DNA of 64,000 bases from Novosphingobium sp. RL4 (GTDB taxonomy: Bacteria; Pseudomonadota; Alphaproteobacteria; Sphingomonadales; Sphingomonadaceae). Positions 16,295 to 32,219 of this stretch are shown here, in pieces. The notes beneath the pieces are model-generated. The model worked only from the letters and a program-made list of their open reading frames with translations. It made no database searches and had not been told where the DNA came from. A program made the position numbers and the translations under genes. The stretch spans positions 2,568,001 through 2,632,000 of the forward strand of contig NZ_CP141944.1 of the NCBI RefSeq assembly GCF_035658495.1. The letters are read 5' to 3'. The stretch's first letter is position 1; every line of letters starts with the position of its first letter.

Positions 16295-17299
16295 ATGGCG
16301 AAGATAGAACGGGGCGTGAGCCTTTACAGCTTCCAGGAAGAAATGTTCCTGGGGCAGATGTCGGTTGAGGACTGCATTGCCTTTGGCGCCTCAATCGGCG
16401 CGAAAGGGATCGAGATCCTGCCCGAACAGAACATGCCGCGTTTCCCCCACATCGACGATGCGGAAGTGGCGCGCTGGCAGGACATGCTGGCCCGCCACGG
16501 CGCGCATTTCACTTGTTACGACATGTTCCTCGACACCAAGCTGCGCAAGGGCGAGACCCTCTCGGACGAGGAGCAGGTGGAAAGTATCCGGCGCGACCTC
16601 GTGCTCTGCAACCGGCTCGGCATCCGCAACATGCGTGTGCTTGTCTTCGTGCGCCCCGACATCCTCGAAAAATGCGTGCCCCATGCGGAGGAACTGGATG
16701 TCCACATGGGCGTGGAAGTCCATGCACCGTGGCATCTCGAACATGCATGGATCCTCCGCACCATCGACGTGGCGGACCGGATCGGCACGAAGCATCTAGG
16801 CATCCTGCCCGACATGGGCATCTTCATGAAACACTACCCGCCGGAATTCCGCGCCCGCTTCGAACGGCAGGGTGCGCGGCCGGAAGTGGCGCAGTTCATC
16901 GTCGACCAGCACGAACAGAAGATCATGTGCGAATACACGATCTACGAAGTCGCGGTGAAGATGGGCGGCAACAAGGCCGAGATCGCCATGGCCGAGACAC
17001 TGCGCCACGCGCCTTACGCCAACCCTAAACGGATCGGCGATTATGCACCGTACTTCCGCCATATACAGGCCAAGTTCTACGGCATGGCACAAGACTGCAC
17101 GGACCCCACTATCGCCTACGACGACGTGATACCCGAACTGGTGAAATGCGGCTGGGAAGGCACGCTTTCGAGCGAATACGAAGGCAATCGCTGGATCCAG
17201 GACGTCTCGCCGGTCGACAGCCGCGAGCAGGTCCGCCGCCAGCATGTGATGTTCGAGCGCCTGATAGCCAAGGCCGAAGCGGAACTGGAGACCGCCTGA
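16295..17299 (+). CDS. C-glycoside deglycosidase alpha-subunit-like TIM-barrel protein (sugar phosphate isomerase/epimerase family)
   Basis: This 334-aa protein has the xylose-isomerase-like TIM barrel. A probable divalent-metal site is visible at E141 (VEVHAP), D173 (LPDMG), H256 (RHIQAKF) and E294 (SSEYEG). In the known C-glycoside deglycosidases a large TIM-barrel subunit and a small beta subunit cleave the C-C bond of 3-oxo-C-glycosides by metal-assisted elimination. The next gene encodes the beta-subunit family, which makes that role likely; cleavage of 3-oxo-O-glycosides is the alternative. The ATG follows GGGAGAAGGG, and a TTG one codon earlier is less likely. The gene has an operator copy 41 bp upstream. 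Confidence 0.8.
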   Translation: MAKIERGVSLYSFQEEMFLGQMSVEDCIAFGASIGAKGIEILPEQNMPRFPHIDDAEVARWQDMLARHGAHFTCYDMFLDTKLRKGETLSDEEQVESIRRDLVLCNRLGIRNMRVLVFVRPDILEKCVPHAEELDVHMGVEVHAPWHLEHAWILRTIDVADRIGTKHLGILPDMGIFMKHYPPEFRARFERQGARPEVAQFIVDQHEQKIMCEYTIYEVAVKMGGNKAEIAMAETLRHAPYANPKRIGDYAPYFRHIQAKFYGMAQDCTDPTIAYDDVIPELVKCGWEGTLSSEYEGNRWIQDVSPVDSREQVRRQHVMFERLIAKAEAELETA

Positions 17300-17691
17300 T
17301 GTTCGACAAGTATCTTATCGACGCCGCTTCGCTGCGCAACACCGGCCCGGCCGATGCGCCCACGGGGTTCTCCTTCGAGGCCAAGCTCGGCTATTATCGC
17401 GGGCTTGGCCTCTCGATGATCGAGAAGCTGGACGTGTCCATCGACGGGGCCTCGCTTCCGCGCGCGGCGGTTCGCTTCGATGAAGGCGGAGGCGCCATCA
17501 CGCTGGACGAGATGGAAACCGCTTACGACCGGCGGTGGCCCTTCGGGACAGCGGCGACGATCCTTGTCGATCATCCGGGCGGGTTCCCCGATGGCGAGCA
17601 CGAACTCGCTCTGCTCCAGCAACTCCGTGTTTCCTACCTGCCTTTCCCGTCGATCAACACCGATGCCAAGCGCGTCTCGCTCGAGGCATGA
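17299..17691 (+). CDS. C-glycoside deglycosidase beta-subunit-like protein (DUF6379 family)
   Basis: The 130-aa protein begins MFDKYLID and contains the features I know from the DUF6379/deglycosidase beta subunit family: GFSFEAKLGYYRGLGLS at the N-terminus, a central IDG...R..GG segment, and the C-terminal LRVSYLPFP. In characterised systems this small beta-sheet subunit packs on the TIM-barrel subunit and is needed for activity. Its ATG overlaps the stop of the alpha gene (ATGA), which fits an obligate complex. No signal peptide is visible, so the complex is cytosolic. The family assignment is from sequence pattern; no search was run. Confidence 0.75.
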   Translation: MFDKYLIDAASLRNTGPADAPTGFSFEAKLGYYRGLGLSMIEKLDVSIDGASLPRAAVRFDEGGGAITLDEMETAYDRRWPFGTAATILVDHPGGFPDGEHELALLQQLRVSYLPFPSINTDAKRVSLEA

Positions 17692-19295
17692 TGAACCGGC
17701 GTGACGCGCTGCATTTGGGCGCGGTGGCAGGACTGGTGACGGGCCTTCCCGCACCGGCGCTCGCCGCCGCCGGGAAGCCTCCCGCGAGGAACGGGATCGA
17801 GGGCCAGCGCCGGGCCGATCAAGGGGATGGCACCTACCTCAATCCAGTACTCGCCGGCGACTATCCCGATCCGACGATTCTCAAAGACGGCGAAGACTAC
17901 TATCTCACGCATTCCTCTTTCGAAGCCGCGCCCGGACTGCTGATCTGGCATTCGCGCGATCTCGTGAACTGGACGCCGATAGCTTCCGCGTTGGAAAAGC
18001 CGCTGGGCACGGTCTTCGCGGTCGATCTCGTGAAGCATGAAGGGCGATATTACATTTACATTCCGTTCATGGCGGCGCCGTGGTCGGAAGGGCTCAAAAG
18101 CTTCGCCAACATCTGTGTCAGCCACGCGGACGATATTCGCGGACCGTGGAGCGAGCCGGTCGACCTCGGCATCGGCGGCCTGATCGACCCCGGCCATGTC
18201 GTGGGTGAAAACGGCAAACGCTATCTCTTCCTGTCCGGTGTCAACCGCGTGCGCCTGACCGACGACGGCCTCGCCACGGACGGTCCGGTGGAGAAAGTCT
18301 ATGACGGGTGGAAATATCCTGACGACTGGGTGACCGAAGCCTACTCGCTGGAAGGCCCCAAGTTGTTCCGGCGAGGCGACTGGTTTTATCTCGTGACAGC
18401 GGTGGGCGGCACCGCCGGCCCCCCTACCGGCCACATGGTGACGGTGGCCCGTTCGCGCTCGGTTCACGGGCCTTGGGAGGACTGCCCTCACAATCCCGTG
18501 ATCCGCACCTGGAACCCTGCGGACAAATGGCTGTCCCGCGGTCACGCCACCTTCGTGGAAGGTCCTGCGGGAGATTGGTGGGCCGTCTATCACGGATATG
18601 AGAACGGCTTCTACACGCTCGGTCGGCAGACCCTGCTCGAACCGATCCGGTGGGACAAGCAGGGCTGGCCTCACGCGATGGGCGCCGACCTTGCACGCCC
18701 GCTCGCCAAGCCTTCCGGGGGCGAGGCGGGGCCGCACGGCATGGCGTGGTCGGACGATTTCTCAGGCCAGTCTCTCGGCTCGCGCTGGCGTTTCTACAAC
18801 CAGGCCCCGGGCGCTGGTGCACGGGCAACCGTCGGCGGCAATGCGCTGACACTTGCAGCGAAAGGCACCGGACCGCAGGACTGCTCTCCGCTGACCCACC
18901 TTGTCGGCGATCACGCCTACGAGTGCTCAGTCTCTGTAGAGCTGACGGACGGTGCGTCTGCAGGGTTGCTCCTGTTCTTCAACGACCGGCTGTTCCTCGG
19001 CATGGCTTACGATGGCGAGCGCATGGTAAGCTATCGTGGCGGCAAGGCGAGTTACTGGCAGGAGCCGGTGGAGAAAGGCAGCAGGATCGACTTGCGGATC
19101 GTCAACGATCGGCAAATCGTCTCCATGTATCACCGCACGCCAGGTGGTGAGTGGGTTCGCCACGCTGTTCGCAGCGAAGTCTCCGGCTACCACGCCAATA
19201 CCATGGACGACCTGGCAAGCCTGCGCCCGGCGATCTTCGCCAGCGGCAAGGGTTCGGCACGTTTCAGGGACTATCGTTACAAGGCGCTTGCCTGA
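17688..19295 (+). CDS. GH43-family glycosidase with Tat-type signal peptide
   Basis: This 535-aa protein begins with an NRRDALHLG twin-arginine motif and a hydrophobic stretch ending PALAAA, so it is probably exported by Tat. The five-bladed propeller of family 43 follows: YPDPTI (general base Asp), IDPGH (pKa-tuning Asp) and SLEGPK (general acid Glu). A C-terminal beta-sandwich (about residues 360-535) resembles the XynB_C/concanavalin-like domain. GH43 enzymes are mostly beta-xylosidases and alpha-L-arabinofuranosidases; the exact sugar is unclear. The ATG overlaps the beta-subunit gene, so it belongs to the deglycosidase operon. It could trim a pentose from a diglycoside before uptake (inference). 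Confidence 0.88.
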   Translation: MMNRRDALHLGAVAGLVTGLPAPALAAAGKPPARNGIEGQRRADQGDGTYLNPVLAGDYPDPTILKDGEDYYLTHSSFEAAPGLLIWHSRDLVNWTPIASALEKPLGTVFAVDLVKHEGRYYIYIPFMAAPWSEGLKSFANICVSHADDIRGPWSEPVDLGIGGLIDPGHVVGENGKRYLFLSGVNRVRLTDDGLATDGPVEKVYDGWKYPDDWVTEAYSLEGPKLFRRGDWFYLVTAVGGTAGPPTGHMVTVARSRSVHGPWEDCPHNPVIRTWNPADKWLSRGHATFVEGPAGDWWAVYHGYENGFYTLGRQTLLEPIRWDKQGWPHAMGADLARPLAKPSGGEAGPHGMAWSDDFSGQSLGSRWRFYNQAPGAGARATVGGNALTLAAKGTGPQDCSPLTHLVGDHAYECSVSVELTDGASAGLLLFFNDRLFLGMAYDGERMVSYRGGKASYWQEPVEKGSRIDLRIVNDRQIVSMYHRTPGGEWVRHAVRSEVSGYHANTMDDLASLRPAIFASGKGSARFRDYRYKALA

Positions 19296-19302
19296 TCGGC
19301 TA

Positions 19303-19336
19303 CGAGGGGGAGGCGGCCTGGCCGCCCTCCCCCTCG
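19303..19336. terminator. Strong hairpin between convergent genes
   Basis: A nearly perfect GC-rich inverted repeat (16 bp per arm with one bulge and a very small loop) lies between the GH43 gene and the convergent MFS gene. It has no T tract but sits exactly where a bidirectional terminator is needed. Confidence 0.5.
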
Positions 19337-19355
19337 CTATGGAATACAATTCCAG

Positions 19356-20780
19356 TCACGCGTCATGTTCGGGGAACAAGGGCGCCGGAAGCCGGAACGC
19401 CAGAACCAGGCATATCAGCATCAGCCCTTCGATGGCGGCGATCGCAGGCAGGACCGCGCCGACCTCTCCTGTCGGCGCACCGGCGAAGAAGGCCGTACCG
19501 ACTATGGCGATGCCCAGCGCCATGCCGAGTTCCTGCACCGTCTTGATGAAACCGCTTGCCGTGCCCGCATGGCTCCGGTCGACGCGCGCGAGGATCACCG
19601 GCGTCAGCGGGCCGCTGGTCATGCCCATGCCGGTCCCGGCAAGAGCAAGACATGGCAGTGCCCACCAGAACGACACGTCGGTCTCGATCCACGCCAGAGT
19701 GCCTCCGGCAAACAATGCCATCAGCGTGATCCCGCCTACCAGCACCCATTTGCCGTGGCTCGTCACGAGCTTGCGGCCGAGAAAGGCAATACCGAGCATG
19801 ACCCCGGCGCTGAACGGGATGTGCAGCAGGCCGGTTTCCAGTGGAGAGAAACCGAGCAATTTCTGCGCCCCGAATGCGAAGACGAACAGGAAGCCGCCCG
19901 TCGCCGCGCCGAATGCCAGCGCGATCGCAAGGCCAAGCGCGAACTGCCTTTGATGGAAGAGTTCAGGCGCATAAAGCGTCGCGGCCCCGACTTTTGCGCG
20001 TCTCTCGGTCCGCCGCCAGACCAGCGCCAGCATGATCGGAGCCGCGAAGAGCAAGGCGAGATGCCAGGGTTGCCAGCCAAGGTCATGCCCCCGCACAAGC
20101 GGATAGAGCATCGCAGCCATAGACGCGGCGAACAGCATGGTTCCACCACCGTCGATCCCGCGCGTCAGGGACGAACGCGCAGAAGGCAGCAACTTCCACG
20201 CGACGATCACTGCCAACACGCCGACCGGCACGTTGATGAGGAACACACTGCGCCACCCCAGGCCGAAGGGATTGGCATGGATCAGCACGCCGCCGATGAT
20301 CGGCCCGCAGATGGCTGAAAGGCCGCCGATGACGCCGACCCATGCCAGCTTCGCCACGCGCTCCAGTGGCTGGAACAGGACCTGGATCAATGCCATGACC
20401 TGCGGCGCCATCATCGCCCCCGCTCCGCCTTGAAGCACGCGCGCGGCGATGAGTTGTTCCGGGCTGCGAGAGAGCCCGCAAAGCATCGAGGCAAACGTGA
20501 AGCCCGCCACGCCGCCAATGAACAGGCGATTGTAGCCGAAAGCATCCCCCAGCCGGCCGCCCAGCATCAACAGCAGGGCAAATGCCAGCGAGTAGCCCGC
20601 CGCGACCCATTGCGCCTGTGCCGCCGCCGCGCCGAAGTCCTGTTCGATCACCGGCAGCGCGGTGTTGACGATGGTGACGTCCACGATCTCAAGAACCAGC
20701 GCCACCATCAATGTCAGGTAGGCCAGCGATTTCTGTCGCTCGGTCAGGTCCATGACCTGCGCCGGAAACGGCGATGCCAT
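19356..20780 (-). CDS. DHA2-family MFS transporter in the sugar-dehydrogenase operon
   Basis: This product of about 474 aa has 14 predicted membrane helices. Motif A (GGRLGDAFGYNRLFI) and the motif-C stretch GPIIGGVLIHANPFG are typical of DHA2 transporters. I start at ATG 20780; a TTG three codons upstream overlaps the stop of the GMC gene. It is the last gene of the leftward operon with the dehydrogenase subunits and shares its operator. In this context it could export a toxic aglycone or import a glycoside; sequence alone does not decide. Confidence 0.85.
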   Translation of the reverse strand: MASPFPAQVMDLTERQKSLAYLTLMVALVLEIVDVTIVNTALPVIEQDFGAAAAQAQWVAAGYSLAFALLLMLGGRLGDAFGYNRLFIGGVAGFTFASMLCGLSRSPEQLIAARVLQGGAGAMMAPQVMALIQVLFQPLERVAKLAWVGVIGGLSAICGPIIGGVLIHANPFGLGWRSVFLINVPVGVLAVIVAWKLLPSARSSLTRGIDGGGTMLFAASMAAMLYPLVRGHDLGWQPWHLALLFAAPIMLALVWRRTERRAKVGAATLYAPELFHQRQFALGLAIALAFGAATGGFLFVFAFGAQKLLGFSPLETGLLHIPFSAGVMLGIAFLGRKLVTSHGKWVLVGGITLMALFAGGTLAWIETDVSFWWALPCLALAGTGMGMTSGPLTPVILARVDRSHAGTASGFIKTVQELGMALGIAIVGTAFFAGAPTGEVGAVLPAIAAIEGLMLICLVLAFRLPAPLFPEHDA

Positions 20781-20785
20781 GGCGG

Positions 20786-22480
20786 TCAAATTACGCCTTC
20801 CTTCAGCATCGAAACCGCCGTCGCGCAGGCCCGCGCAGTGAGCGCCATGTAAGTGAGCGAAGGGTTCTGGCAGGCAGATGAGCTCATCTGTGCGCCATCG
20901 GTGACGAACAGGTTTGGAATGTCGTGGGCCTGGCTAAGGCGATTGAGCACCGAAGTCCCTGGGTCCCAACCCATCCGCGCGCCGCCCATTTCGTGAATGG
21001 AAGTGCCGCCATGGCCCGGCTTGTCGAAGCCCATGATGACGTGGCCGCCCGCGTCGGTCAGCATCGCGGTCGCCTCGCGATGCGCATCGGCAAGCGCCGC
21101 CATTTCCTCCTTGCCATGCTCGAAGGCAATCTCGAGCTGGCGGACGCCGCGCGGGTCCGTGCGGTTGCTCAGCGTCAGTCGATTGCTGGCGCGCGGCATC
21201 GAATCCGCGAAGACCACCAGCACCATCGTCCACGGACCGATCTGGTGCAGCTCTTCCTTGTAATCCTTGCCGATGCCGCCCATCCGCTTGCCGCGCGTCC
21301 AGGTGCCTTGCAGCGCGCCGCCCTGGAACGAATAGCCGCGCGTGAAGCCGTCCCCGTCCAGCGTGTCGAGATTGCGGAAACGCGGGATGACGATGCCGGT
21401 GGGCCGATTGCCGAAGCTGGTCCGGCCTTCGAATCCAGGCATCACCGCCATGGCCGCCATCGTATTGGCATGGTCCATGATGTGCGTGCCGAGCACCCCA
21501 CTCGAATTGGCAAGGCCGCGAGGCATCGCTTCGCTAGCCGAGTTGAGCATGAGGTGGACCGAGTTGAACGCCCCCGCGTTCAGAAACACCACGCGGGCAT
21601 AGGCAACCTTGTGCTCGCCGGTCTTCGTGTCGATCCAGCGCACCCCGGTAACCCGGCCGGTCTTCGCATCGTAATCCACCTTGTGGACCTGCGCGTCGGT
21701 AACGACCTTGAGCCGCCCGGTCTTCTTCGCCGCCGGCAGTGTTGCCGATTGCGTCGAGAAGTAGGCGCCGTAGGAACAGCCGCGCGCGCAGATGCTGCGA
21801 TACTGGCAGTGCGCCCGGCCCTGTTCGGGACGTGCCTCGGTAAGGTTCGCGGTGCGGCCGATTGTCATCACCCGGTCCGGATACTTCGCCCGGATCCGCT
21901 CACGGACGGCCGCCTCGACACAGTTCAATTCCATCGGCGGCAGAAAACGGCCGTCCGGAAGCTGGGCCAGCCCTTCCGCCGCGCCCGATACGCCGACGAA
22001 TTCCTCTACCTTGTCGTACCACGGGGCAAGGTCGGCATAGCGGATCGGCCAGTCGGTGCCGAAACCATCCCGCTTGTTGGCGCCGAAATCATAGTCCGAC
22101 CAGCGGTAGCACTGCCGCCCCCATGTCAGCGAACGCCCGCCGAGCTGGTAGGAGCGGAACCAGTCGAAGTCCTTGCCCTTCGCCTTCTGGTAGGGCTGCT
22201 CGGCATCGTTGACGAAGTGGCCTTCGGTGAACTCGTTGAAATGCCGGTTGAGCATCTGCACCGGATATTCGCGGGCATAAAGCTCGGCGTCGCCCTGCCC
22301 TCGAAACGGCATTTCCCACGGGGCCTTGAGTTCGGTCTCATAGCCCGTCTGATGCTCGATATTGCGGCCGCGCTCGACCATCAGGACGGTAAGGCCCGCC
22401 TCGGTCAGTTCCTTGGCCGCCCAGCCGCCGGTAATGCCGGAGCCAACGACAATAGCGTCGAATTGCGTGTTGTTGGTCAT
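20786..22480 (-). CDS. GMC-family sugar (glycoside 3-) dehydrogenase, catalytic subunit
   Basis: The 564-aa protein has the N-terminal FAD motif VGSGITGGWAAKEL, the GMC active-site histidine region (SIHEMGGARMG) and the C-terminal SSSACQNPSLTYMALTARA with the paired asparagine. A cysteine cluster CQYRSICARGC in the middle is like the iron-sulfur ligands of bacterial glucoside 3-dehydrogenases. With the small subunit encoded 1 bp upstream it probably oxidises C3 of a glycosyl residue and passes electrons to the respiratory chain. A 3-oxo-glycoside is exactly the substrate of the deglycosidase pair encoded at 16.3 kb. The start ATG is set by the small-subunit stop. Confidence 0.88.
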   Translation of the reverse strand: MTNNTQFDAIVVGSGITGGWAAKELTEAGLTVLMVERGRNIEHQTGYETELKAPWEMPFRGQGDAELYAREYPVQMLNRHFNEFTEGHFVNDAEQPYQKAKGKDFDWFRSYQLGGRSLTWGRQCYRWSDYDFGANKRDGFGTDWPIRYADLAPWYDKVEEFVGVSGAAEGLAQLPDGRFLPPMELNCVEAAVRERIRAKYPDRVMTIGRTANLTEARPEQGRAHCQYRSICARGCSYGAYFSTQSATLPAAKKTGRLKVVTDAQVHKVDYDAKTGRVTGVRWIDTKTGEHKVAYARVVFLNAGAFNSVHLMLNSASEAMPRGLANSSGVLGTHIMDHANTMAAMAVMPGFEGRTSFGNRPTGIVIPRFRNLDTLDGDGFTRGYSFQGGALQGTWTRGKRMGGIGKDYKEELHQIGPWTMVLVVFADSMPRASNRLTLSNRTDPRGVRQLEIAFEHGKEEMAALADAHREATAMLTDAGGHVIMGFDKPGHGGTSIHEMGGARMGWDPGTSVLNRLSQAHDIPNLFVTDGAQMSSSACQNPSLTYMALTARACATAVSMLKEGVI

Positions 22481-22481
22481 G

Positions 22482-23114
22482 TCAGCCGAAATCCACTGCG
22501 GTCCAGTCGCTGGAGAATGCGCGGTCGCCGGGCTTGAGAGGGATGTCCCACTCCCATTTTCCGGGCACCAGTTCATAGCGAAGTTCCTGCGATCCGCCGG
22601 CTTCGCTGGTGTAGTAGCCGGTCAGGATCAGCCCCTTGATCGCCGTCCACGGCGATGGTGGCGCGCCTTGGGCGAAAGCCTGGGTATCGAGCGCCGTCAG
22701 TAGCCGCACACGTTCCGCCGGGTCATGTCGCAGAAAATCGCCGCCCGCCGCGCGGTCGAGCGTGTGTTCCAGCCATGGGAGATGGCGCAGCGAACCGTCG
22801 CGGCGACGGAACGGTTCAAGCGCCGCCGTCACCATGCCTGCGGCCATCGGCGCGCGCGTGCCGGAAAGACCATGGGCAAGCGCCAGCACGACGAAATCGC
22901 CGACCCCCACGTCCTTCGCGCCAGGCGTATCGGTGCGCGGGATCACGAGATCGGAAACCTCCGCGATCAGATTGCGCTGGCGGTCGCTCGGCAGTTCGCG
23001 CTCGTCGAGAGCGGTAAGCTTCACGCCCGCTGCAGGAATGCCCAGAGCCAGCGCCAGCAGCGCCGCACCCGCGGTGAATTCGCGGCGGTTCCAGCCGGAA
23101 GTATGAGCGCTCAT
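22482..23114 (-). CDS. Gluconate 2-dehydrogenase subunit 3-family protein (dehydrogenase small subunit)
   Basis: This 210-aa protein starts with a twin-arginine signal (NRREFTAG, then a hydrophobic run to about residue 30). The mature part contains IAEVSDLVIPRTDTPGAKDVGVGDF, the signature of the gluconate-dehydrogenase gamma-subunit family. In glucoside 3-dehydrogenases this subunit carries the catalytic subunit through the Tat pathway and anchors it to the electron-transfer chain. It lies 1 bp ahead of the GMC gene. Its ATG overlaps the stop of a 28-codon remnant ORF (ATGA), so it was once translationally coupled to a gene now lost. Confidence 0.9.
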   Translation of the reverse strand: MSAHTSGWNRREFTAGAALLALALGIPAAGVKLTALDERELPSDRQRNLIAEVSDLVIPRTDTPGAKDVGVGDFVVLALAHGLSGTRAPMAAGMVTAALEPFRRRDGSLRHLPWLEHTLDRAAGGDFLRHDPAERVRLLTALDTQAFAQGAPPSPWTAIKGLILTGYYTSEAGGSQELRYELVPGKWEWDIPLKPGDRAFSSDWTAVDFG

Positions 23115-23197: not shown

Positions 23198-23214
23198 GAT
23201 CCGTCTCATTTCGA

Positions 23215-23499: not shown

Positions 23500-23518
23500 G
23501 CTTCCTCTCGTATGATTT

Positions 23519-23535
23519 ATAATGATGGTTCTAAT
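23519..23535 (+). promoter_or_regulatory. Operator-like element, copy E (degenerate)
   Basis: The sequence ATAATGATGGTTCTAAT matches the shared element at AAT-N4-xTTCTAAT. It lies 20 bp upstream of the Gfo/Idh-remnant start and shares a divergent intergenic region with copy B, 85 bp away. It is the weaker half-site match of the five. Confidence 0.55.
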
Positions 23536-23571
23536 TTTATATGAGGGGTCAGGTCAAGGCCTTCGATTGCA

Positions 23572-23600
23572 TTGACCGCGGTCAGAAACGCCGATATCAA
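23572..23600 (+). promoter_or_regulatory. Candidate sigma-70 promoter of the MFS gene
   Basis: TTGACC (23572-23577) and TATCAA (23595-23600) are separated by 17 bp. The operator copy B begins 4 bp after the -10 box, so a bound regulator would cover the transcription start. The MFS start codon is 52 bp downstream. Confidence 0.55.
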
Positions 23601-23603
23601 ACA

Positions 23604-23620
23604 GGAATAGAAATTCTAAT
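23604..23620 (+). promoter_or_regulatory. Operator-like element, copy B (GGAAT-N4-ATTCTAAT)
   Basis: The sequence GGAATAGAAATTCTAAT differs from copy A at one base, and the identity continues for several bases on each side. It lies 32 bp before the MFS gene at 23653, just downstream of the candidate promoter, the usual place for repressor binding. Confidence 0.75.
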
Positions 23621-23652
23621 ATAGCGCCGGACAGCGGCGCGGGCGGAGAGGC

Positions 23653-24864
23653 ATGAACCCGGTTTCCCGATTCTTCAGCAAGCTCACCATGAAGCCGCAG
23701 GGCATGACGATCGTCATCGCGGCCTTCCTTCCGATCTTCGCGATCGTCTCGATGTTCCCGATCGTGGCATCGATGATCGCCCACTTCCAGACCGACCCGG
23801 ACGCCGCGGCCAAAGTGCCGCTCATGGTCACCGCGCCGGGCCTCACCATCGCGATCCTCGCACCGTTCGCGGGCTGGTTCGTGGACAAGTTCGGCCGCCG
23901 CCGGCTGCTGCTGATCTGCACGTTCTTCTACGGCCTGTTCGGCACCCTGCCGTTCTTCCTCGACGACCTGAACCACATTTTCGCCAGCCGCCTGGCGCTG
24001 GGCGTTTGCGAGGCGGGCATCCTCACCATCGTCAACACCCTGCTCGGCGATTACTGGGATAACGAAAGCCGCCGAAACTGGCTGTTCCTGCAAGGGGTGA
24101 TCGGGCCGTTCCTGGCTTCGGGCGTGATCCTGATGTCTGGGCTTGTCGCCTCGATGCGGTGGAACGGCGGCTTCCTCGTCTATCTGGTCGCCTTCCCGAT
24201 CTATTTCGCGATGCTGGCGTTCCTCTACGAACCCAAGGGCCGCGCGGCACATGATGAAACTCCGGCAGAGCCGACCGGCGAGAAGGCTCGCTTCCCGGTC
24301 GGCGCCGCGCTCGGCGTCGCCGCGCTGACGCTGTTCTCGGCCGCACAGTACTACGTCTTCATCGTCAACGGCAGCATTGCCTTCGGCGAAGTGGGCGTCA
24401 CCGATCCCGCCGCCGTCGCCAAGATGAGCTTCCTTCCCAGCCTGTTCGTCATTCTCGGCGCGCTGCTGTTCCGTATCCTCTCGGGCCGATCCAACGGCGT
24501 ACAGCTCGGCGCCTTCCTTGCGATTCTCGGCACCGGCCTTGCCGTGATCGGTCTTGCCCGCAACCCGGGCGAGATGATCGTCGGCCTTGCCATCCAGCAG
24601 ACCGGCGCGGGCATGGCAGTGCCCTCTCTCATCGCCTGGGCCCAGACCAAGTTCCCCTTCGAGCATCGCGGCCGGGGCATGGGCATCTGGACCGGATCGT
24701 TCTTCTTCGGACAGTTCATCTCGCCTGTGCTCGTTCATCAGGCGAATGGTGCGACGGGCTCCATGCAGGGCGCGTTCCTCAGCGCGGGCGTACTCTCGCT
24801 GACAGTCGCCCTCGCCGCGCTCGGCATGGGCATGACACGCAGGCGAACGCCGCTGATGGCGTGA
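23653..24864 (+). CDS. MFS transporter, probable glycoside or aglycone importer
   Basis: The 403-aa protein has 12 predicted membrane helices. The motif-A loop between helices 2 and 3 reads GWFVDKFGRRRLLL. The ATG follows GGCGGAGAGG. It is a single-gene transcription unit with its own promoter and operator copy B and ends in a strong terminator. The neighbourhood suggests it brings glycosides, or sugars released from them, across the inner membrane after passage through the TonB receptor. Its substrate cannot be read from the sequence. Confidence 0.88.
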   Translation: MNPVSRFFSKLTMKPQGMTIVIAAFLPIFAIVSMFPIVASMIAHFQTDPDAAAKVPLMVTAPGLTIAILAPFAGWFVDKFGRRRLLLICTFFYGLFGTLPFFLDDLNHIFASRLALGVCEAGILTIVNTLLGDYWDNESRRNWLFLQGVIGPFLASGVILMSGLVASMRWNGGFLVYLVAFPIYFAMLAFLYEPKGRAAHDETPAEPTGEKARFPVGAALGVAALTLFSAAQYYVFIVNGSIAFGEVGVTDPAAVAKMSFLPSLFVILGALLFRILSGRSNGVQLGAFLAILGTGLAVIGLARNPGEMIVGLAIQQTGAGMAVPSLIAWAQTKFPFEHRGRGMGIWTGSFFFGQFISPVLVHQANGATGSMQGAFLSAGVLSLTVALAALGMGMTRRRTPLMA

Positions 24865-24885: not shown

Positions 24886-24923
24886 AAAGGCCCGCCGGGA
24901 GCGATCCCGGCGGGCCTTTTCTT
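24886..24923. terminator. Bidirectional rho-independent terminator
   Basis: A perfect 15-bp stem (24886-24900 with 24905-24919) closed by a 4-nt loop is followed by TTCTTT. It separates the MFS gene from the convergent GH3 gene; the stem starts with AAA, giving a T run on the other strand as well. Confidence 0.9.
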
Positions 24924-24938
24924 TGGGATTGCTGCGCT

Positions 24939-27320
24939 TCAGGCGAGCGCAGCAATCTCCATTTCCAAGGTCAGCCCCTCATCTTCGCAATGGCGCGCAA
25001 GACGCAGCACGAGATGGTCGGCTACGGGTTCCCAGCCCTGCTCGCCCCAGCGCTGCAGCGCGCGCGGTTCGAGCGGCACGGCAATGCGGCGGCTCTCCCC
25101 CGCAGCCAGTTCGACGCGGGCGAAGCCCACCAGCGCGCACTCGGGGTTATCGCGATAGACCTGCACGACATCGCTGCCGGTGCGGTCCGAGGTGTTGGTA
25201 ACGGTGAGGTGCAGCATGCCTCCTTCGACCGCAGCGCTCGCCCACGCGAAGCGCGCATAGCCCATGCCCGAGCCGAACGGATGACGCGCAGCCTTTCCGC
25301 TCGCTGCGAGACCGCGATAGCCCAGCAGTGTGCCTTCCGAATAGGTCAGCGTGCCGTCACTTGCAGGCTGAAGCGCGAACGCCGGGTAGTCGCCCTCATC
25401 CGCAGCCATGGTCACCGGAAGACGGCCACCCGGCTCGCGCGTACCGGAAAGCACGTCGGCCAGAGCGCGGGCGAAGCCCTCCCCCGGATACCAGACCGAC
25501 AGCAGCGCCGCCGTCCTGTCTTCCCACGCGCTGTCAAAAGCATGGCCGACGTTGACGACCACCGCCGTGCGCGGATTGGCAGCCGTCACCGCTTCGATCA
25601 GGTGGATTTGCTCGGCAGGCAGCAGGGTGTCGGCGCGGTCCTTGCTCTCGACACTGGAGTCCGAAGTCTCTCCCACGATCAAGAAGACCGCATCCGCCGC
25701 ACGCGCTGCATCGACCGCGGCCTGCAGCATTTCCTCGGCACTGCCGGGGCCGCGCAGGCCATACCACAAGCCCTGCACACGGCCCCCTGTCCACGAGAAT
25801 TCGACTGCGATCGTCACTTCCTGTCCCTCCGCGAGATGGAAGCTCACATGATCGGAATCGCCGCGCTTGAGCACGCCCATCACGTCGCCCGCCGGGATCT
25901 CCCCGCCTGCACGCATGACTTCCTCACCGTCGACGAGAATGCGCGCCGCGCCGGTAGAGCCGAGGTGCAGCATATGCGCGCCGGCGCGCTTCGCGGTGTA
26001 GCGCCCGCTGGCACGCACCGAGCCCGGTTCGGTAAAGCGCGCCTGATCGTGGACCCCGACGAACCAGACAAGCGAGTTGGTATCGCGCGTCTCGCGTGTG
26101 AGCACGTCGCCCACGCAATCCGGCGCACCGAAGTACTCAAGCGTCATGCCGCTCGTGCAGCCGTCGCCGATATCGAGCGCGGGTGTCACACTCATGTTCG
26201 GCAGACGCGGCTGCGGATCGACACCGGGTTCGAACAGGATCTCGCACGAAGCGCCGTAGGCCGCGCGCAAGGTCTCCACCGGCGTCGGCGCATCGGGCGA
26301 AATCGAAATCTTGGCGAAAGTGCCGCCCTGGAAGCATGGCGCCCAGGCATTGGGGCCGATCACCGCCAGCGTCTTCACCGTTCCGGGCACGAGCGGCAGC
26401 ATATCGCCTTCGTTGCGCAGCAGGGTAAATCCGGCCGCGGCAGCCTCTACCAGCAGGGCCTCGGCTTCGGCAGCAGGTATCGGCGGCGCCTTGTCGCCGG
26501 TGATCCGGCGCGCGACCGCAGCGATGCGTGATGCAGCATCCTCCACCCGCGCCGGATCGACCGCCCCTGCCGCGACAGCCGCTTCCAGCTTGCCCCCCAT
26601 GAACCGCGAAGGTCCGGGCATTTCCAGATCGAGGCCGGCATTGATCGTGCCTTCGCTGGAATGCGTGCCGAACCAATCGCTCATGATGAGGCCTTCGAAG
26701 CACCAGTCCTGCTTGACGACTTGCGTAAGAACATGGGCCTGCTCCGAGCACCACGACCCGTTGACGCGGTTATAGGCGGCCATCAACCCGACGCAGCCCG
26801 CGTCTGCAGCATATTGGAATGGCAGCAGATAGACTTCGCGCAAAGTCCTCTCGTCCACGCGCACGTCGACTTCGTCACGCGAGGTCTCGCTATCGTTGCA
26901 GACCAGATGCTTGGCGACCGAGCCGGTGCCGGTCGATTGCAGGCCCTTCACCCATTCCGCCCCGAGCACACCGGTCAGCACCGGGTCTTCCGAGAAATAC
27001 TCAAAAGCCCGGCCTGCCAGCGGACTGCGTGCGAGGTTGAGGTTGGGCGCCAGCACCGCATCCACCCCGCGCAAGACGGCCTCGCTGCCGACCAGTGCGC
27101 CGACGCGGCGGGTCAGGTCGCGATCCCAGGTCGCGCCGAGCAGGGTCGAGCATGGGCTTAACAAGGCGATGTCGCGCTCATCCACTTTGCCGCTGGCGAT
27201 ACCGAGCGGTCCATCGGACATGGTGAAGGCAGGAATGCCCGCATCGGGCACCGCGAAAGTGGCCCACATCGCGCCGCCCGCGGTGAGCGCGCATGCTTGT
27301 GAAAGGGTCACGTCGCTCAT
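24939..27320 (-). CDS. GH3 beta-glucosidase with inserted PA14 domain
   Basis: The 793-aa protein has the GH3 N-terminal barrel with the catalytic nucleophile D215 in the motif GLIMSDWFGTH and the substrate-binding KHLVCND. The second GH3 domain is interrupted by a PA14-like beta domain (about residues 400-540), as in some aryl-beta-glucosidases. A fibronectin III-like domain closes the protein. No signal peptide is visible, so it acts in the cytoplasm on imported glucosides. The ATG overlaps the FMN reductase gene by 4 bp. The family fits removal of O-linked glucose from aromatic glucosides. Confidence 0.93.
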   Translation of the reverse strand: MSDVTLSQACALTAGGAMWATFAVPDAGIPAFTMSDGPLGIASGKVDERDIALLSPCSTLLGATWDRDLTRRVGALVGSEAVLRGVDAVLAPNLNLARSPLAGRAFEYFSEDPVLTGVLGAEWVKGLQSTGTGSVAKHLVCNDSETSRDEVDVRVDERTLREVYLLPFQYAADAGCVGLMAAYNRVNGSWCSEQAHVLTQVVKQDWCFEGLIMSDWFGTHSSEGTINAGLDLEMPGPSRFMGGKLEAAVAAGAVDPARVEDAASRIAAVARRITGDKAPPIPAAEAEALLVEAAAAGFTLLRNEGDMLPLVPGTVKTLAVIGPNAWAPCFQGGTFAKISISPDAPTPVETLRAAYGASCEILFEPGVDPQPRLPNMSVTPALDIGDGCTSGMTLEYFGAPDCVGDVLTRETRDTNSLVWFVGVHDQARFTEPGSVRASGRYTAKRAGAHMLHLGSTGAARILVDGEEVMRAGGEIPAGDVMGVLKRGDSDHVSFHLAEGQEVTIAVEFSWTGGRVQGLWYGLRGPGSAEEMLQAAVDAARAADAVFLIVGETSDSSVESKDRADTLLPAEQIHLIEAVTAANPRTAVVVNVGHAFDSAWEDRTAALLSVWYPGEGFARALADVLSGTREPGGRLPVTMAADEGDYPAFALQPASDGTLTYSEGTLLGYRGLAASGKAARHPFGSGMGYARFAWASAAVEGGMLHLTVTNTSDRTGSDVVQVYRDNPECALVGFARVELAAGESRRIAVPLEPRALQRWGEQGWEPVADHLVLRLARHCEDEGLTLEMEIAALA

Positions 27321-27904
27321 GCCACTGCCTCCGTCCGAAAACCCATGATCTGCTCCGCCTGCGCACGCACGGCGCGGGCGATGCCTTCGTCCGCCAGCGT
27401 ACCGTCGGGCGCGAAAGGCTTCTGCTCCACCGAGTTGACCGCAACGCCTACCGGTGTCGGCCAGCCGCGCATCGCGTGAACCACGTCGCGCATCGCCGAA
27501 AGCGTGGTACCGCAAGCCTGCCAACCCGCCGCTGTCACCACGAGGCCGACCGGACGCCCATCGAAATAGACCCTTGGATCGCCGCGCAAGTCTTCAAGCA
27601 GGTCGATGGCGTTCTTCACGAGGCCGGAATAGCCCCCGTGATAGCCGGGGCTGCCGATAACGATCCCATCCGCGCTGCGGACGGCCTCGACGAGCGCCTG
27701 CTCTTCGGGCGTGCGGTCCGGGCCTTCAGGGTTGAAATGCGGCAAGGCGGCAAGCGCCGCCCCATCGAACATCACGGTTTCCGCGCCCAGTGCCGCGCAT
27801 TCGACAAGCACGGCACGCACGATCCGTTCACTGGACGAGGCCTGGCGGAACGTGCCGCCAAGCCCCACGACCCGCCGGGGCGCGGCGGACGAAATCACGG
27901 TCAT
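27317..27904 (-). CDS. NADPH-dependent FMN reductase
   Basis: This 195-aa flavodoxin-like protein has the FMN phosphate loop GTFRQASSSER near the N-terminus and the flavin-contacting SPGYHGGYSGLVKN at about residue 85, both typical of the NADPH-dependent FMN reductase family. Such enzymes supply reduced FMN to two-component monooxygenases. The luciferase-like monooxygenase encoded directly upstream is the obvious partner. GAGGAG lies 6 nt before the ATG. A GC-rich hairpin separates it from the monooxygenase gene. Confidence 0.9.
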   Translation of the reverse strand: MTVISSAAPRRVVGLGGTFRQASSSERIVRAVLVECAALGAETVMFDGAALAALPHFNPEGPDRTPEEQALVEAVRSADGIVIGSPGYHGGYSGLVKNAIDLLEDLRGDPRVYFDGRPVGLVVTAAGWQACGTTLSAMRDVVHAMRGWPTPVGVAVNSVEQKPFAPDGTLADEGIARAVRAQAEQIMGFRTEAVA

Positions 27905-27920
27905 CGCATTCTCCTCAAGC

Positions 27921-27946
27921 GGCGCGGCCTTCTTGCGGGCCGCGCC
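27921..27946 (-). other. Intercistronic hairpin between monooxygenase and FMN reductase genes
   Basis: A perfect 9-bp GC stem (27921-27929 with 27938-27946) and an 8-nt loop lie inside the operon, just ahead of the reductase ribosome binding site. It has no T tract; it could stabilise the upstream mRNA part or reduce downstream expression. Confidence 0.4.
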
Positions 27947-27959
27947 ATTCTATTTGCCA

Positions 27960-29072
27960 TCAAGCCGGAACGGCGGCCTTGAACGCCGGCATCACCTTTT
28001 CGGCCATCAGGCGCAGGGTCTGGTCGCCATAAGCAAGGCGTTGCTCGGTCAACGGTCCCGTAGTGGTGCCGCACAGCACATTGCCGATGCCGAGTTCGGC
28101 GTAAGGCGCCAGATGCTCCGCCACCGTTTCCGGCGAGCCGTAGAGGCACCAGGTGCCGATCCAGTCGTCGGACAAAGCGTCCGGCGTGCGGTCGGTCTTC
28201 TTGTTGGCATCGTCGCTTTCGGCACGCGCATTGAACTCGGCCTCGCGCTCGATCGCGTCCTGGTAGCTGCGCAGGATCGCTTCCAGTTCCTCGCGCGCCT
28301 GGTCGTCGCTCTCTGCAACATGGACCACCTGATAGGTATGTGTCGTCCAGTCGAGCGCGGCCTTCACCACTTCGTCCGAATGCCCGGCTTCAAGCAGGAA
28401 ACCCTTGTAGATATCGAACCACTTCTTGACGTGCGCGAAAGGCTCGGTGCCGCCGATCTTGGGCGGGGTGAAAGCGGGAATGAAGGCCGGCCAGCCGTTC
28501 TCGGCCGCGCGGCGCGAACTGGCCTCCTTCATCGCCACAGGCATCAACCGCGCATGGCCCGGCGTATAGGGCGAAGGCGTGATGCGCTGTAGCACGCGGC
28601 CCTTGTAAGGTCCGTTGTCGATCACCACCGCCGGATCTTCCATCTGCTTGGCCCAGAGCTGTTCTGCCAGCGCAAGGTTGTTCTCCGCGATCGCGCCCGC
28701 GTCCTTGTAGTCGACCGCAAAGCCGATCATCTCTTCCGGCGTCGTGCCTGAACCAACGCCGACCAGCAGCTTGCCGTCAGTCAACTGGTCGAGAATGTTG
28801 ATCCGCTCGGCAAGGCGCACCGGGTGGTGCAACGGCACCGAAACCACGGAGAAGCCGAAATGCATCTTCGGCATCTGCGCGGCCAGGTAGCCTGCGAAAA
28901 TGAAGCTGTCGCTCGCCACCGGCATGTAACCGTTGAAGTGGTGGTCCGGCAGGAAGATCGCGTCGTAATCGAGCTCGGCGGCAAGTTTTGCGTGACCCTC
29001 AAGGTCCTTCATCAGCTTCCGGTCCTGATCCGGACCAAGCGAACGGGCGTTCAGAAAAACGGAAAAGCGCAT
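27960..29072 (-). CDS. LLM-class flavin-dependent monooxygenase (luciferase-like)
   Basis: The 370-aa protein has the luciferase-like TIM barrel. Visible landmarks are FLPDHHFNGYMP near residue 50, LDQLTDGKLLVGVGSG at about 100-115 and a C-terminal GSPETVAEHLAPY. These enzymes insert oxygen with FMNH2 delivered by a separate reductase, which is encoded next in the operon. The ATG at 29072 has the strong GGGAGGGGAAG in front; a start seven codons upstream is less likely. It heads the operon monooxygenase - reductase - GH3, controlled from operator copy D. It may attack the aglycone, but this is inferred from context. Confidence 0.88.
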   Translation of the reverse strand: MRFSVFLNARSLGPDQDRKLMKDLEGHAKLAAELDYDAIFLPDHHFNGYMPVASDSFIFAGYLAAQMPKMHFGFSVVSVPLHHPVRLAERINILDQLTDGKLLVGVGSGTTPEEMIGFAVDYKDAGAIAENNLALAEQLWAKQMEDPAVVIDNGPYKGRVLQRITPSPYTPGHARLMPVAMKEASSRRAAENGWPAFIPAFTPPKIGGTEPFAHVKKWFDIYKGFLLEAGHSDEVVKAALDWTTHTYQVVHVAESDDQAREELEAILRSYQDAIEREAEFNARAESDDANKKTDRTPDALSDDWIGTWCLYGSPETVAEHLAPYAELGIGNVLCGTTTGPLTEQRLAYGDQTLRLMAEKVMPAFKAAVPA

Positions 29073-29138
29073 CTTCCCCTCCCTTGGGGCCATAGCCGCC
29101 GCCGCGATGGCGTGCGGTTCAGTGTGAAATAAAACTGA

Positions 29139-29155
29139 ATTAGAATTGACGTTCT
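29139..29155 (-). promoter_or_regulatory. Operator-like element, copy D, between monooxygenase operon and tetR
   Basis: On the minus strand the sequence reads AGAAC-N4-ATTCTAAT, one arm base off the consensus. It lies 27 bp before the tetR start and 66 bp before the monooxygenase start, so one bound repressor could control both and allow autoregulation. Confidence 0.7.
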
Positions 29156-29182
29156 TATTTCGATAGGCTGTTTGTTGCGGTC

Positions 29183-29872
29183 ATGTCAACAAGCGCAAAG
29201 CCCCGCCCCGGCGAAAAAAAGGCCGAAAAGAAACTGGCCGTCGATTCCGTCAGCCGAAAGCCCCAGCAGGGGCGCAGCAAGGCTTCGCTCGAAAGGATGG
29301 TCAGTGCCGCCAAGAAGCTCATGCTGGAACGCGGAAGCGAGGAGTTCACGCTTCAGGAAGTGAGCCAGACCGGCAATGTCTCGATCGGCTCGATCTACCT
29401 GCGGTTCGAGAGCAAGGAGAACCTCGTCCGCGCGGTTATCGGCGATCACCTCAAACGCATGGAAGAGCGCGAGAATGAGATGATGGAGCGGGTGCGTGGA
29501 GTATCCAGCTCGCTGAACACCGTCGTTCCCGCCTTCGTCGAAAACTACGCCGAGCTGCTGCGGGAAGAGGCCCCCCTCCTCCGCCAGAGCATGGCCCGCG
29601 CCGCCTTCGATCCACTGGTCGCCGAACCCGGCCGGCAGAGCGCCAATCGCGCCGCGGCGCTCGGCATCGGCGCCATGCTGGAATACCGCGACCAGTTCGG
29701 GGGCACCGATCAGGAGCGCAAGGCGAATGCCGCCTATCAGATCATCTTCGCCACCCTTGCCCGACAGTTGAGCCTCGGCTCGACCGGGGAGTCCGTCCAT
29801 CCTCAGGACTGGAAGGAACTGAAGATAGAACTGGGCCGGATGTGCCTGGCCTACCTCACGACTGACCTCTAG
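29183..29872 (+). CDS. TetR/AcrR-family regulator, probable master regulator of the glycoside locus
   Basis: The 229-aa protein has a basic N-terminal tail (residues 1-35) and then the TetR helix-turn-helix (about 36-85) with FTLQEVSQTGNVSIGSIYLR, followed by an all-helical ligand-binding domain. Genes of this family commonly sit beside their own operator, and copy D lies directly upstream. It is the only regulator gene in the 16-32 kb region, so it is the best candidate for binding all five operator copies (inference). The N-terminal tail is longer than usual for the family. Confidence 0.9.
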   Translation: MSTSAKPRPGEKKAEKKLAVDSVSRKPQQGRSKASLERMVSAAKKLMLERGSEEFTLQEVSQTGNVSIGSIYLRFESKENLVRAVIGDHLKRMEERENEMMERVRGVSSSLNTVVPAFVENYAELLREEAPLLRQSMARAAFDPLVAEPGRQSANRAAALGIGAMLEYRDQFGGTDQERKANAAYQIIFATLARQLSLGSTGESVHPQDWKELKIELGRMCLAYLTTDL

Positions 29873-29900
29873 GCGCATTGCCTTCTCCAGCGCGGGAATG

Positions 29901-29932
29901 AAAAAGAGGGGCGCAGCCAGTAGCTGCGCCCC
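29901..29932 (-). terminator. Rho-independent terminator of the TonB receptor gene
   Basis: A perfect 9-bp stem (29908-29916 with 29924-29932) is followed on the minus strand by CTCTTTTT. It lies about 80 bp past the receptor stop codon and 35 bp past the convergent tetR stop. Confidence 0.8.
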
Positions 29933-30014
29933 CGATCGTTGCCCGGCGATATGGTGCCTTCGCGGACGCTTGCAGGAGGAGAAGCGCGCCCGCCCGCGGA
30001 GGATCACCGAGACA

Positions 30015-32219
30015 TCAGAAATTCACGCTCGCCCGGACGCCGTAAGTGCGCGGCGGCTGGAACTGGTAATTGTTGGTGAACGACACGAAGTTCTGCTGCG
30101 CATAGGCCAGCACATTCTTGTCGAAGATGTTGCGTACGAAAGCCTGGATCTTCCAGCCTCCAACGTCAGGCTGGTAGGCCAGAGACGCATTCGCCATGAA
30201 GAAGTCTTCCGTAGAGACATCATCCAGATTGAAAACGGAGAAGTAATATTTCGAGGAATACTTCCCGTCGAGATGAGCCGTGACCTTTCCACCGGCGAAG
30301 AGGAAGTCCTGATCCAGTGAGCCGGTCACGGTGAACGTCGGGGCATTTGGCAGACGGTTGCCGCTGATATCCACGGGGCTGTTGTCGCCATCGTTGACCT
30401 CGATACCGTTGCCGAACTTGGTGTGCAGGTAAGTGCCGTTGACGCCGATCCGCGTATGCTCGGCCACCAGCGCCTTCACTTCCGCCTCGGCACCGAAGAT
30501 CTTGGCATTGCCGACATTGAAGATGCCGCTGCCGCCGTCGATCACGCTGGATGTCTGCGAGGCCTGATAGCCCCGATAATTCGAGTAGAAGACGTCAGCG
30601 TTGATCTGGAGCGAGTTGCCCAGGAACGAATTCTTCGTACCCAGTTCGAAGGCGTCCAGCTTTTCCGGACCGTAGGGTATCGAGGCCGCGCTGCCGTTGG
30701 AATTGAAGCCGCCCGATTTGTAGCCGCGGTCGTACTTCGCATAGATCAGCGTATCGGGCGTGGGATGGTAGTTCAGCCCGGCGTGCCAGGTCGGCTGGCT
30801 CTCGCTGAGCTTGCCTTCACCCGGCGTAACGATCGGGTCCGCAGAGATGAACGGGCTGGCCAAAGCTGCAAGGTCCAGCACGGCCTGACCTGTGCGGCTC
30901 TTCTTGTCCCAGGTGTAGCGGCCGCCCACGCTCAGTTCGAGTTGATCGGTAAGATCGAAATCGACCTGCCCGAAGACCGCCTGCGAGCGGGTCTTGATCC
31001 TGTAGTCGAACTTGATGCCGTATTGATCGGGCTGCCCCAGTGCCGCCAGCGGGCCGCCGATCGCAAAGTCGCCGGTCATGTCGCGGTTGTAGAGCCCGGA
31101 ATCGACGGTGTTGTTCTCCTGGAACCGGAAATAGCCCGCCTGGAAGAACAGACGCGAAGCGGAGTCATTGCTCACGCGGAATTCGTGGTTCCAGGTCTTG
31201 GGGGTCTCGCTCTGGCGGAACTGGCGGTTCGCCGGATAGGATGGCCCGGTGGCATCGACCACGTTTTTCCAGTGCTGTTCGTCGTAGCCGCCCGAATAGA
31301 TGAAGTTCAGGTTGCCGCTGGTGTTGTAGGCCAGTTCCCAGCGAACGCGGTCCCCTTCGAGCCGCGTGGAAATCGGCGTGGTACCCACGAAGTCTCCGAT
31401 ATCGTCGAGGTCAGGCTGAGGGCCGCCGAGCGTCCCCCGCAGCACGGCATCGCCATGGACCTTGCGGGAGTCGTGCTGGTAGGAAACCCATGCCGAGAAG
31501 CCACCCGACTGATAAAGCGCCTGAAGCCGACCCGATGCAAAATTCTCGTCGTCGGCATCCTTCGTCGGCGCGTCCAGCTTGCGGTAGCCGTCATGGGTCA
31601 TGAAAGTGCCCGAAGCGCGGATCGCGAAGTTGTCGCTCACCGCGAGATTGGCGCCCATCTCCCCGTTGAAGGTACCGAAGTTGCCCACTTCGACCGAACT
31701 GTAGCCCCCGTTGGAGAACTGCGGCCGGTTGGTAATGATGCTGACGAGACCGCCGGTGGAGTTGCGCCCGTTGAGCGTGCCCTGCGGCCCCTTGAGCACC
31801 TCGATACGCGCGAGATCGTACATCGAGGCGTTTATCGAGAACGGTCGGTTGGTGTAGAATCCGTCGCGTGCAATCGGCACGGAAGGATCGCCGATCTCCG
31901 TCACGTCGGTGGAGGCAACGCCGCGCACTGCAACGAATGCTGCGCCCGCCGAAGGCGAGATGTTCACGCTGGGGTCGATCAGGGCGAGGTCCCGGACCGA
32001 CACGACGCCGGCATCGCGCAGTGCATCGCCGGAGTAGACGTTGAGCGCGATCGGGGTGTCCTGCGCGTCGGAGGCGGTGCGGTTTGCCGTAACGATGATA
32101 TCGCCCAGACCCTGGCTCTGCGCGGCCGTATCATCGCTTGCCTGAGTGGCAGTCTGCGCGTGGGCCATGACAGGAACGGCCAGCGCGGACGTCGAAAGAA
32201 GCACGAATGCCAGTCTCAT
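30015..32219 (-). CDS. TonB-dependent outer-membrane receptor
   Basis: This 734-aa protein has a Sec signal peptide ending AHAQT (about residue 23), a plug domain (DIIVTANRTASDAQDTPIAL, then GPQGTLNGRNSTGG) and a 22-strand barrel ending in the terminal phenylalanine (SVNF) expected for outer-membrane insertion. The ATG at 32219 follows GGGAGAG. Receptors of this FecA/FepA-like sphingomonad group import plant compounds and glycosides as well as iron complexes. Operator copy C upstream ties it to the glycoside regulon, so I expect it to import the regulon's substrate. Confidence 0.93.
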   Translation of the reverse strand: MRLAFVLLSTSALAVPVMAHAQTATQASDDTAAQSQGLGDIIVTANRTASDAQDTPIALNVYSGDALRDAGVVSVRDLALIDPSVNISPSAGAAFVAVRGVASTDVTEIGDPSVPIARDGFYTNRPFSINASMYDLARIEVLKGPQGTLNGRNSTGGLVSIITNRPQFSNGGYSSVEVGNFGTFNGEMGANLAVSDNFAIRASGTFMTHDGYRKLDAPTKDADDENFASGRLQALYQSGGFSAWVSYQHDSRKVHGDAVLRGTLGGPQPDLDDIGDFVGTTPISTRLEGDRVRWELAYNTSGNLNFIYSGGYDEQHWKNVVDATGPSYPANRQFRQSETPKTWNHEFRVSNDSASRLFFQAGYFRFQENNTVDSGLYNRDMTGDFAIGGPLAALGQPDQYGIKFDYRIKTRSQAVFGQVDFDLTDQLELSVGGRYTWDKKSRTGQAVLDLAALASPFISADPIVTPGEGKLSESQPTWHAGLNYHPTPDTLIYAKYDRGYKSGGFNSNGSAASIPYGPEKLDAFELGTKNSFLGNSLQINADVFYSNYRGYQASQTSSVIDGGSGIFNVGNAKIFGAEAEVKALVAEHTRIGVNGTYLHTKFGNGIEVNDGDNSPVDISGNRLPNAPTFTVTGSLDQDFLFAGGKVTAHLDGKYSSKYYFSVFNLDDVSTEDFFMANASLAYQPDVGGWKIQAFVRNIFDKNVLAYAQQNFVSFTNNYQFQPPRTYGVRASVNF

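Follow-up and report, generated by a model that had tools for sequence, protein, structure and literature searches.

The question raised by a gene cluster of about 16 kb in Novosphingobium sp. RL4 is whether this sphingomonad can break down C-glycosides; their carbon–carbon bond to the sugar is very stable, and the C-glycosyl flavonoids among them are chemically difficult to split. The cluster lies in a window of 64,000 nucleotides (contig C1:2568001-2632000 of the two-contig 5.45-Mb genome). We consider it quite probable that it forms a regulon dedicated to breaking down aryl C-glycosides by a non-hydrolytic route, with O-glycosides as further probable substrates. Judged from sequence, it is a variant of known 3-keto-glycoside catabolism. 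Its anatomy and shared operator are well supported on this basis, a function in 3-keto-glycoside catabolism is the likely prediction, and cleavage of C-glycosides is a probable one.

The related loci used for comparison were 80 of 172 confirmed relatives, chosen by the alpha subunit of the predicted lyase, and genes were counted with 10-kb flanks; the nearest named relative among them was Novosphingobium sp. ST904 (alpha identity 99%). The family survey covered 298 genomes of 96 genera. Co-occurrence statistics throughout ignore phylogeny. Genes were assigned by gene calls and Pfam scans of the window.

The deglycosidase pair

The original prediction listed a two-subunit lyase resembling C-glycoside deglycosidases (CGDs), a GMC dehydrogenase with a gamma subunit, a GH43, a GH3 with PA14 insert, two major facilitator superfamily (MFS) transporters, a monooxygenase pair (a luciferase-like flavin monooxygenase, LLM, with a flavin mononucleotide, FMN, reductase) and a TonB-dependent receptor. 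Pfam confirmed this inventory, and every gene was present about where it had been placed (Table 1). A divergent TetR gene and a truncated Gfo/Idh gene were found in addition. The alpha/beta and beta/GH43 junctions both overlap as TGATG, and parts of the cluster reappear as blocks in related loci, so the arrangement is non-random.

The TIM-barrel alpha gene adjoins the beta gene, the sole PF19906 match in the whole genome, which is the gene layout of CGDs. The comparison of alpha with known deglycosidases, earlier proposed as a check, was run with one structure prediction and gave the fold of the solved CGDs, the nearest solved enzyme being a C-glucosyl deglycosidase. Against the Deinococcus aerius enzyme (PDB 8qvc, 8umc), likewise an alpha/beta lyase with a homologous beta subunit, alpha showed 49% identity in the fold alignment and a root-mean-square deviation of 1.2 Å. 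In an alignment of 78 of 86 homologues (those of 280-420 aa) plus the window sequence, H143 and E296, which correspond to the catalytic H149 and E307 of AgCGD2, were conserved in 79/79 sequences. Of the five metal ligands (Glu, Asp, His, Lys, Glu), four were retained, and the His, present in the D. aerius enzyme, is replaced by Gln258. When beta was aligned to the solved beta subunits (DgpB numbering inferred from PDB 9m3a), its YYRG motif fell on the Tyr required for C–C cleavage (PuCGE Tyr39). A beta gene was present in 80/80 of the alpha-selected loci. Across the family, the CGDB beta gene occurred in 17/298 genomes and 12/96 genera, a scattered minority of sphingomonads.

It is possible, although we consider it rather unlikely, that the substrates are O-glycosides of plant phenolics and that alpha/beta is an O-glycoside beta-eliminase to which C–C cleavage does not belong. 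The family member PuCGE accepts 3-keto glucosides of both the O- and the C-type (PMC10628242), so C-specificity stays a prediction. The GH3 and GH43 here, and GH1, GH106 and GH39 in the loci of relatives, are O-glycosidase families, and the Gln at the metal site points the same way. However, Gln also occupies this position in PDB 8qrz (M. testaceum, deposited as a CGD), the nearest solved enzyme is a C-glucosyl deglycosidase, and the ever-present beta subunit contributes to the C-cleaving aglycone pocket.

Two observations on alpha homologues may be added. A second, separate clade of Gln-type homologues (L043:2975-3889, L095:12125-13018) grouped with the fused Microbacterium deglycosidase 8qrz. 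Five loci (L040, L041, L054, L068, L069) carried two alpha homologues, and in L040, L041, L054 and L069 the additional one is His-type.

Characterised C-glycoside cleavage systems found in print come from gut bacteria, soil actinobacteria and Deinococcus. A deglycosidase gene cluster of D. aerius was reportedly described by Furlanetto in 2024, and a Sphingobium study, PMC10653915, reportedly deals with the catabolism of steroidal glycoalkaloids. Among the literature matches listed, from which subscription papers were mostly outside coverage, no such system was described for sphingomonads. The lyase of DgpABC from gut bacteria is homologous to the window alpha/beta pair, and PurABC/CarABC of soil actinobacteria (PMC12724307, and PMC10646112 on Pseudarthrobacter) share with the cluster a flavin adenine dinucleotide (FAD) enzyme and an alpha/beta lyase. 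A TonB receptor and an LLM, both present in the cluster, go unmentioned in the sections consulted of PMC12724307, in which PurABC homologues in Pseudomonadota are reported from a database search only.

The shared operator

A palindrome was spotted by eye when the intergenic regions of the window were compared with the stretch between TetR and LLM in nine relatives. It spans 22 bp (AAYNRGAAN6TTCTAATW; core RGAAN6TTCTAAT). The core matched the window four times (0.01 expected from shuffles), and the same four matches, all at cluster promoter regions, were the only ones in the whole genome; a reversed control pattern gave three. Window sites had contributed to the definition of the motif, so the proper tests of it are how rare it is in the genome and where it lies in other genomes. 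The 80 related loci showed 52 core matches in 32 loci, compared with 0-2 when any one of six permuted versions of the pattern was used, and 45/52 lay upstream of labelled genes.

Beyond these loci the search covered 26 of the 298 genomes, namely 16 with CGDB and 10 hand-picked without it; every one of the 25 CGDB places beyond the window genome was included, and five of these are weak matches (E 1e-11 to 1e-14). The 16 other CGD genomes gave 40 operator matches in 13 genomes, with 28 within 20 kb of CGDB and 6 further ones within 20 kb of a gene like the dioxygenase gene fdeC. The counts for the 80 loci and for the 26 genomes score both-strand sites twice; merged, the 40 matches are 34 sites, 23 of them near CGDB. 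The ten genomes without CGDB gave 4 matches. In 12/16 genomes an operator lay near CGDB, and in 5/7 other LLM genomes one preceded the LLM gene by about 44-91 bp. The proposal of one regulon gains support at sequence level from this palindrome, which stands at four cluster promoter regions and nowhere else in the genome and lies near CGDB in most of the other CGD genomes. The TetR protein is its obvious predicted binder.

Predicted sugar oxidation, later steps and the aglycone

The GMC dehydrogenase with a Tat-type (twin-arginine) small subunit was upheld by Pfam and a cysteine motif, the twin-arginine motif being read by eye. The closest solved proteins were fructose dehydrogenase large subunits, with glucose dehydrogenases also near. 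GMC shares with fructose dehydrogenase a C-x5-C-x3-C motif, which the window copy and each of the 19 aligned locus copies (of 21 found) carry; we take these cysteines to be iron-sulfur ligands. GMC homologues (51-99% identity) were observed in 21/80 loci, with gamma beside GMC in 19/80.

The known systems differ at this step. PurA and CarA are FAD oxidases (PMC12724307), whereas the window GMC has a gamma subunit and the cysteine motif. DgpA is a Gfo/Idh enzyme dependent on nicotinamide adenine dinucleotide (NAD) (PMC12724307, PMC11239390), whereas Gfo/Idh as the local 3-oxidase was ruled out, only a 94-codon stump being present in the cluster. Caulobacter LacABC is a lactose 3-dehydrogenase of three components (PMC9007349). 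Its layout is like that of the window GMC and gamma, but the window cluster has no cytochrome gene and the partner there is the CGD lyase, not a DUF1080 protein. Presumably, the LacABC subunit families match GMC and gamma. GMC/gamma is predicted to oxidise the sugar at C3. That the pair is instead a generic sugar or alcohol dehydrogenase, unconnected with the lyase step, appears unlikely: the fructose and glucose dehydrogenase relatives and the presence in only 21/80 loci would fit such an enzyme, but the intergenic region common to the GMC unit and the second MFS gene carries an exact and a degenerate operator, the gamma gene adjoins a hydratase gene in five loci (L032, L054, L082, L091, L100), and LacABC provides a 3-dehydrogenase of this layout.

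The hydratase bears on the later steps. The gene order in L032 is MFS-GMC-gamma-hydratase-Gfo with intact genes, and the Gfo stump of the window aligned with residues 1-91 of a 368-aa relative at 73% identity. Because gamma adjoins the hydratase in the five loci named, it is simplest to suppose that the window lineage lost these genes. The cluster does not hold the complete pathway earlier inferred for it, and intact homologues of both genes were found on contig C2. The one hydratase homologue of the genome, 73% identical to the L032 copy, matched the 2-hydroxy-3-keto-glucal hydratase PDB 8ro4 with an E of 6.3e-186 (AtHYD-type). Near it lies a Gfo gene with 56% identity to the L041 copy, with a gene for a small C-x2-C-H protein in between. 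In the Agrobacterium GlycDH-AtOGE-AtHYD-Gfo operon (PMC10628242), oxidation, elimination, hydration and reduction follow each other; the window genome has the AtHYD-like hydratase and Gfo, but AtOGE, which lacks a beta subunit, shows no sequence relationship to CGDs (PMC10628242), and the window genome splits the genes over two contigs. We also observed that the C2 region at about 1133-1146 kb (G000; L131, L132) is another locus for sugar oxidation, in which two GMC/gamma pairs accompany the AtHYD-like hydratase, the small C-x2-C-H protein and Gfo.

A predicted aglycone operon was the next labelled block 5' of alpha in L033, L037, L039 and L089. It consists of a FAD monooxygenase, a glyoxalase-fold dioxygenase, an alpha/beta hydrolase and a cyclase, with a FAA hydrolase in 3/4 of them. 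In the window cluster, neither the FAD monooxygenase nor the FdeC-type dioxygenase was found; the gene set lies on contig C2 at about 88-93 kb, not beside alpha. The flavonoid A-ring operons fde (Herbaspirillum) and ifc (Variovorax) share the FAD monooxygenase, glyoxalase-fold dioxygenase and alpha/beta hydrolase with this C2 operon (PMC11069340, PMC8552027, PMC10755750), a likeness by gene set, outside the window. An FdeC-like dioxygenase was present in 50/298 family genomes and in 16/17 of those that carry CGDB (p 6e-13 by Fisher test, uncorrected for phylogeny). The fde/ifc-like C2 operon is a better candidate for attack on the aglycone than the LLM pair.

The LLM occurred in 8/298 family genomes, each time at most 17.3 kb from the deglycosidase beta gene, but in only 8 of the 17 genomes with that gene. 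Two of the eight genes (G100, G025) carry one internal stop each and may therefore be broken. The layout is that of a two-component system, the PF00296 oxygenase adjoining the FMN reductase, and both were present in 15/16 LLM loci. Neither database names, among the 120 of 457 matches listed, nor the fold matches of one AF2 model gave the LLM a specific name, the top matches, RslO1 and bacterial luciferases, being tied. No NCBIfam model scored above its cut-off for the LLM, alpha or gamma. As a substitute for hydratase or Gfo the LLM was rejected, with no association observed (Gfo in 6/16 LLM loci and 21/64 others, p 0.77). A weak negative association with the FAD monooxygenase (3/16 vs 32/64 loci, p 0.03 uncorrected for 16 pairs, 10-kb flanks) makes replacement of that enzyme a lead, and oxygenation of the aglycone by the LLM pair would be a guess. 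We tentatively propose, and regard as doubtful, that LLM/FMN reductase performs a new oxygenation, dedicated to the breakdown of aryl C-glycosides in some sphingomonads (e.g., of Baeyer-Villiger type or at a ring, acting on the keto-glycoside or the released aglycone), tied by the operator to the Gln-type metal lyase.

The weakest alternative is that the larger cluster of the relatives has decayed here to a remnant whose pathway no longer works, which the Gfo stump, the hydratase missing beside it and an fde-like operon adjoining alpha in some relatives and not here would suggest, but which we consider very improbable, as the remaining genes are open frames, alpha, beta and GMC retain their motifs, four exact operators remain, homologues of the missing functions lie on contig C2, and L033, L037 and L089 likewise have neither hydratase nor Gfo between gamma and the second MFS gene.

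Proposed route and gene coordinates

For the dedicated C-glycoside regulon we propose the following route. The TonB receptor would import the glycoside and a periplasmic GH43 would remove pentose decorations; the GH43 has a twin-arginine-like N-terminus, read by eye. The Tat-exported GMC/gamma dehydrogenase would oxidise the C3-OH of the sugar and pass electrons to the respiratory chain, and MFS carriers may bring the 3-keto-glycoside into the cytoplasm; a homologue of the second MFS was present in 55/80 loci. The metal-dependent alpha/beta lyase would then release the aglycone and 2-hydroxy-3-keto-glucal by beta-elimination. Hydratase and Gfo reductase from the second contig would convert the latter to glucose, and the aglycone would enter the fde/ifc-like A-ring operon on the same contig. 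The TetR protein on its 22-bp operator would be the switch. The GH3 matched the beta-glucosidase PDB 7pjj (E 3.9e-112), and inspection by eye showed no signal peptide.

Several results weigh against this route. One alpha metal ligand is altered and the lyase family accepts O-glycosides. The cluster has neither a hydratase gene nor an intact Gfo, and a C-x2-C-H scan of 16-33 kb for a cytochrome c gene gave one match, antisense to alpha. The oxidation module is variable among relatives (GMC 21, gamma 19, other GMC type 15 and Gfo 27 of 80 loci). The gamma-GMC unit has only a degenerate operator and the fde-like operon of the window genome has no exact one; 3/16 CGD genomes also lack an exact operator, and 6/40 matches lie more than 20 kb from both CGDB and the FdeC-like gene. 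Co-occurrence of motif and TetR was weak (14/24 loci with TetR vs 18/56 without, p 0.045). Of the C-/O-glycoside catabolic system originally predicted, the CGD pair and GMC/gamma stood, the single regulon gained a shared operator at four promoter regions, and completeness within the cluster did not stand.

If the regulon is as proposed, modular and specifically regulated C-glycoside cleavage would be added for a scattered minority of sphingomonads, presumably with a respiratory dehydrogenase in place of an oxidase or NAD enzyme and with an associated flavin oxygenase. The 22-bp operator, the Gln-for-His metal site and the one linked oxygenase are its testable features.

Table 1. Features of the cluster in window coordinates (operator mismatches are counted against AAYNRGAAN6TTCTAATW).
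Feature	Position	Strand	Basis
Operator 1, 5' of alpha-beta-GH43	16233..16254	+	0 mismatches
C-glycoside deglycosidase alpha subunit, TIM barrel	16295..17299	+	PF01261
C-glycoside deglycosidase beta subunit	17299..17691	+	PF19906 CGDB, E 3.1e-36
GH43, arabinofuranosidase/xylosidase-like	17688..19295	+	PF04616, E 3.4e-84; PDB GH43 matches
Hairpin between convergent units, likely terminator	19305..19334	.	Inverted repeat, 2 mismatches
MFS transporter, DHA2-like	19356..20789	-	PF07690; TIGR00711 under its cut-off
GMC FAD dehydrogenase large subunit	20786..22480	-	PF00732/PF05199; fructose dehydrogenase, E 7.2e-41
Dehydrogenase gamma (small) subunit, Gluconate_2-dh3	22482..23114	-	PF13618, E 6.3e-27; twin-arginine motif by eye
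Gfo/Idh oxidoreductase stump, 94 codons	23215..23499	-	PF01408
Degenerate operator, 5' of stump-gamma-GMC-MFS unit	23515..23536	.	2 mismatches, either strand
Operator 2, 5' of second MFS	23600..23621	+	0 mismatches
Second MFS transporter	23653..24864	+	PF07690
Hairpin between convergent units, likely terminator	24888..24917	.	Perfect 11-bp inverted repeat, then T-rich DNA
GH3 glycosidase with PA14 insert	24939..27320	-	PF00933, PF01915, PF07691
NADPH-dependent FMN reductase	27317..27904	-	PF03358, E 1.8e-25
Luciferase-like flavin monooxygenase (LLM)	27960..29093	-	PF00296, E 8.9e-40
Operator 3, between LLM and TetR	29138..29159	.	0 mismatches on -, 1 on +
TetR-family regulator	29183..29872	+	PF00440
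TonB-dependent receptor	30015..32249	-	PF00593, PF07715
Operator 4, 5' of TonB receptor	32269..32290	+	0 mismatches

On the 5' side of the cluster (window 9437-16177, + strand) we observed an efflux operon (HlyD-like protein, DHA2-type MFS and outer-membrane factor), named by eye, and a modABC-type molybdate transporter, named by eye from translations. Three tandem tRNA-Arg(ACG) genes lie at window 39320-39651 (- strand), as 80-nt copies that are 100% and 99% alike with spacings of 132 and 120 nt.

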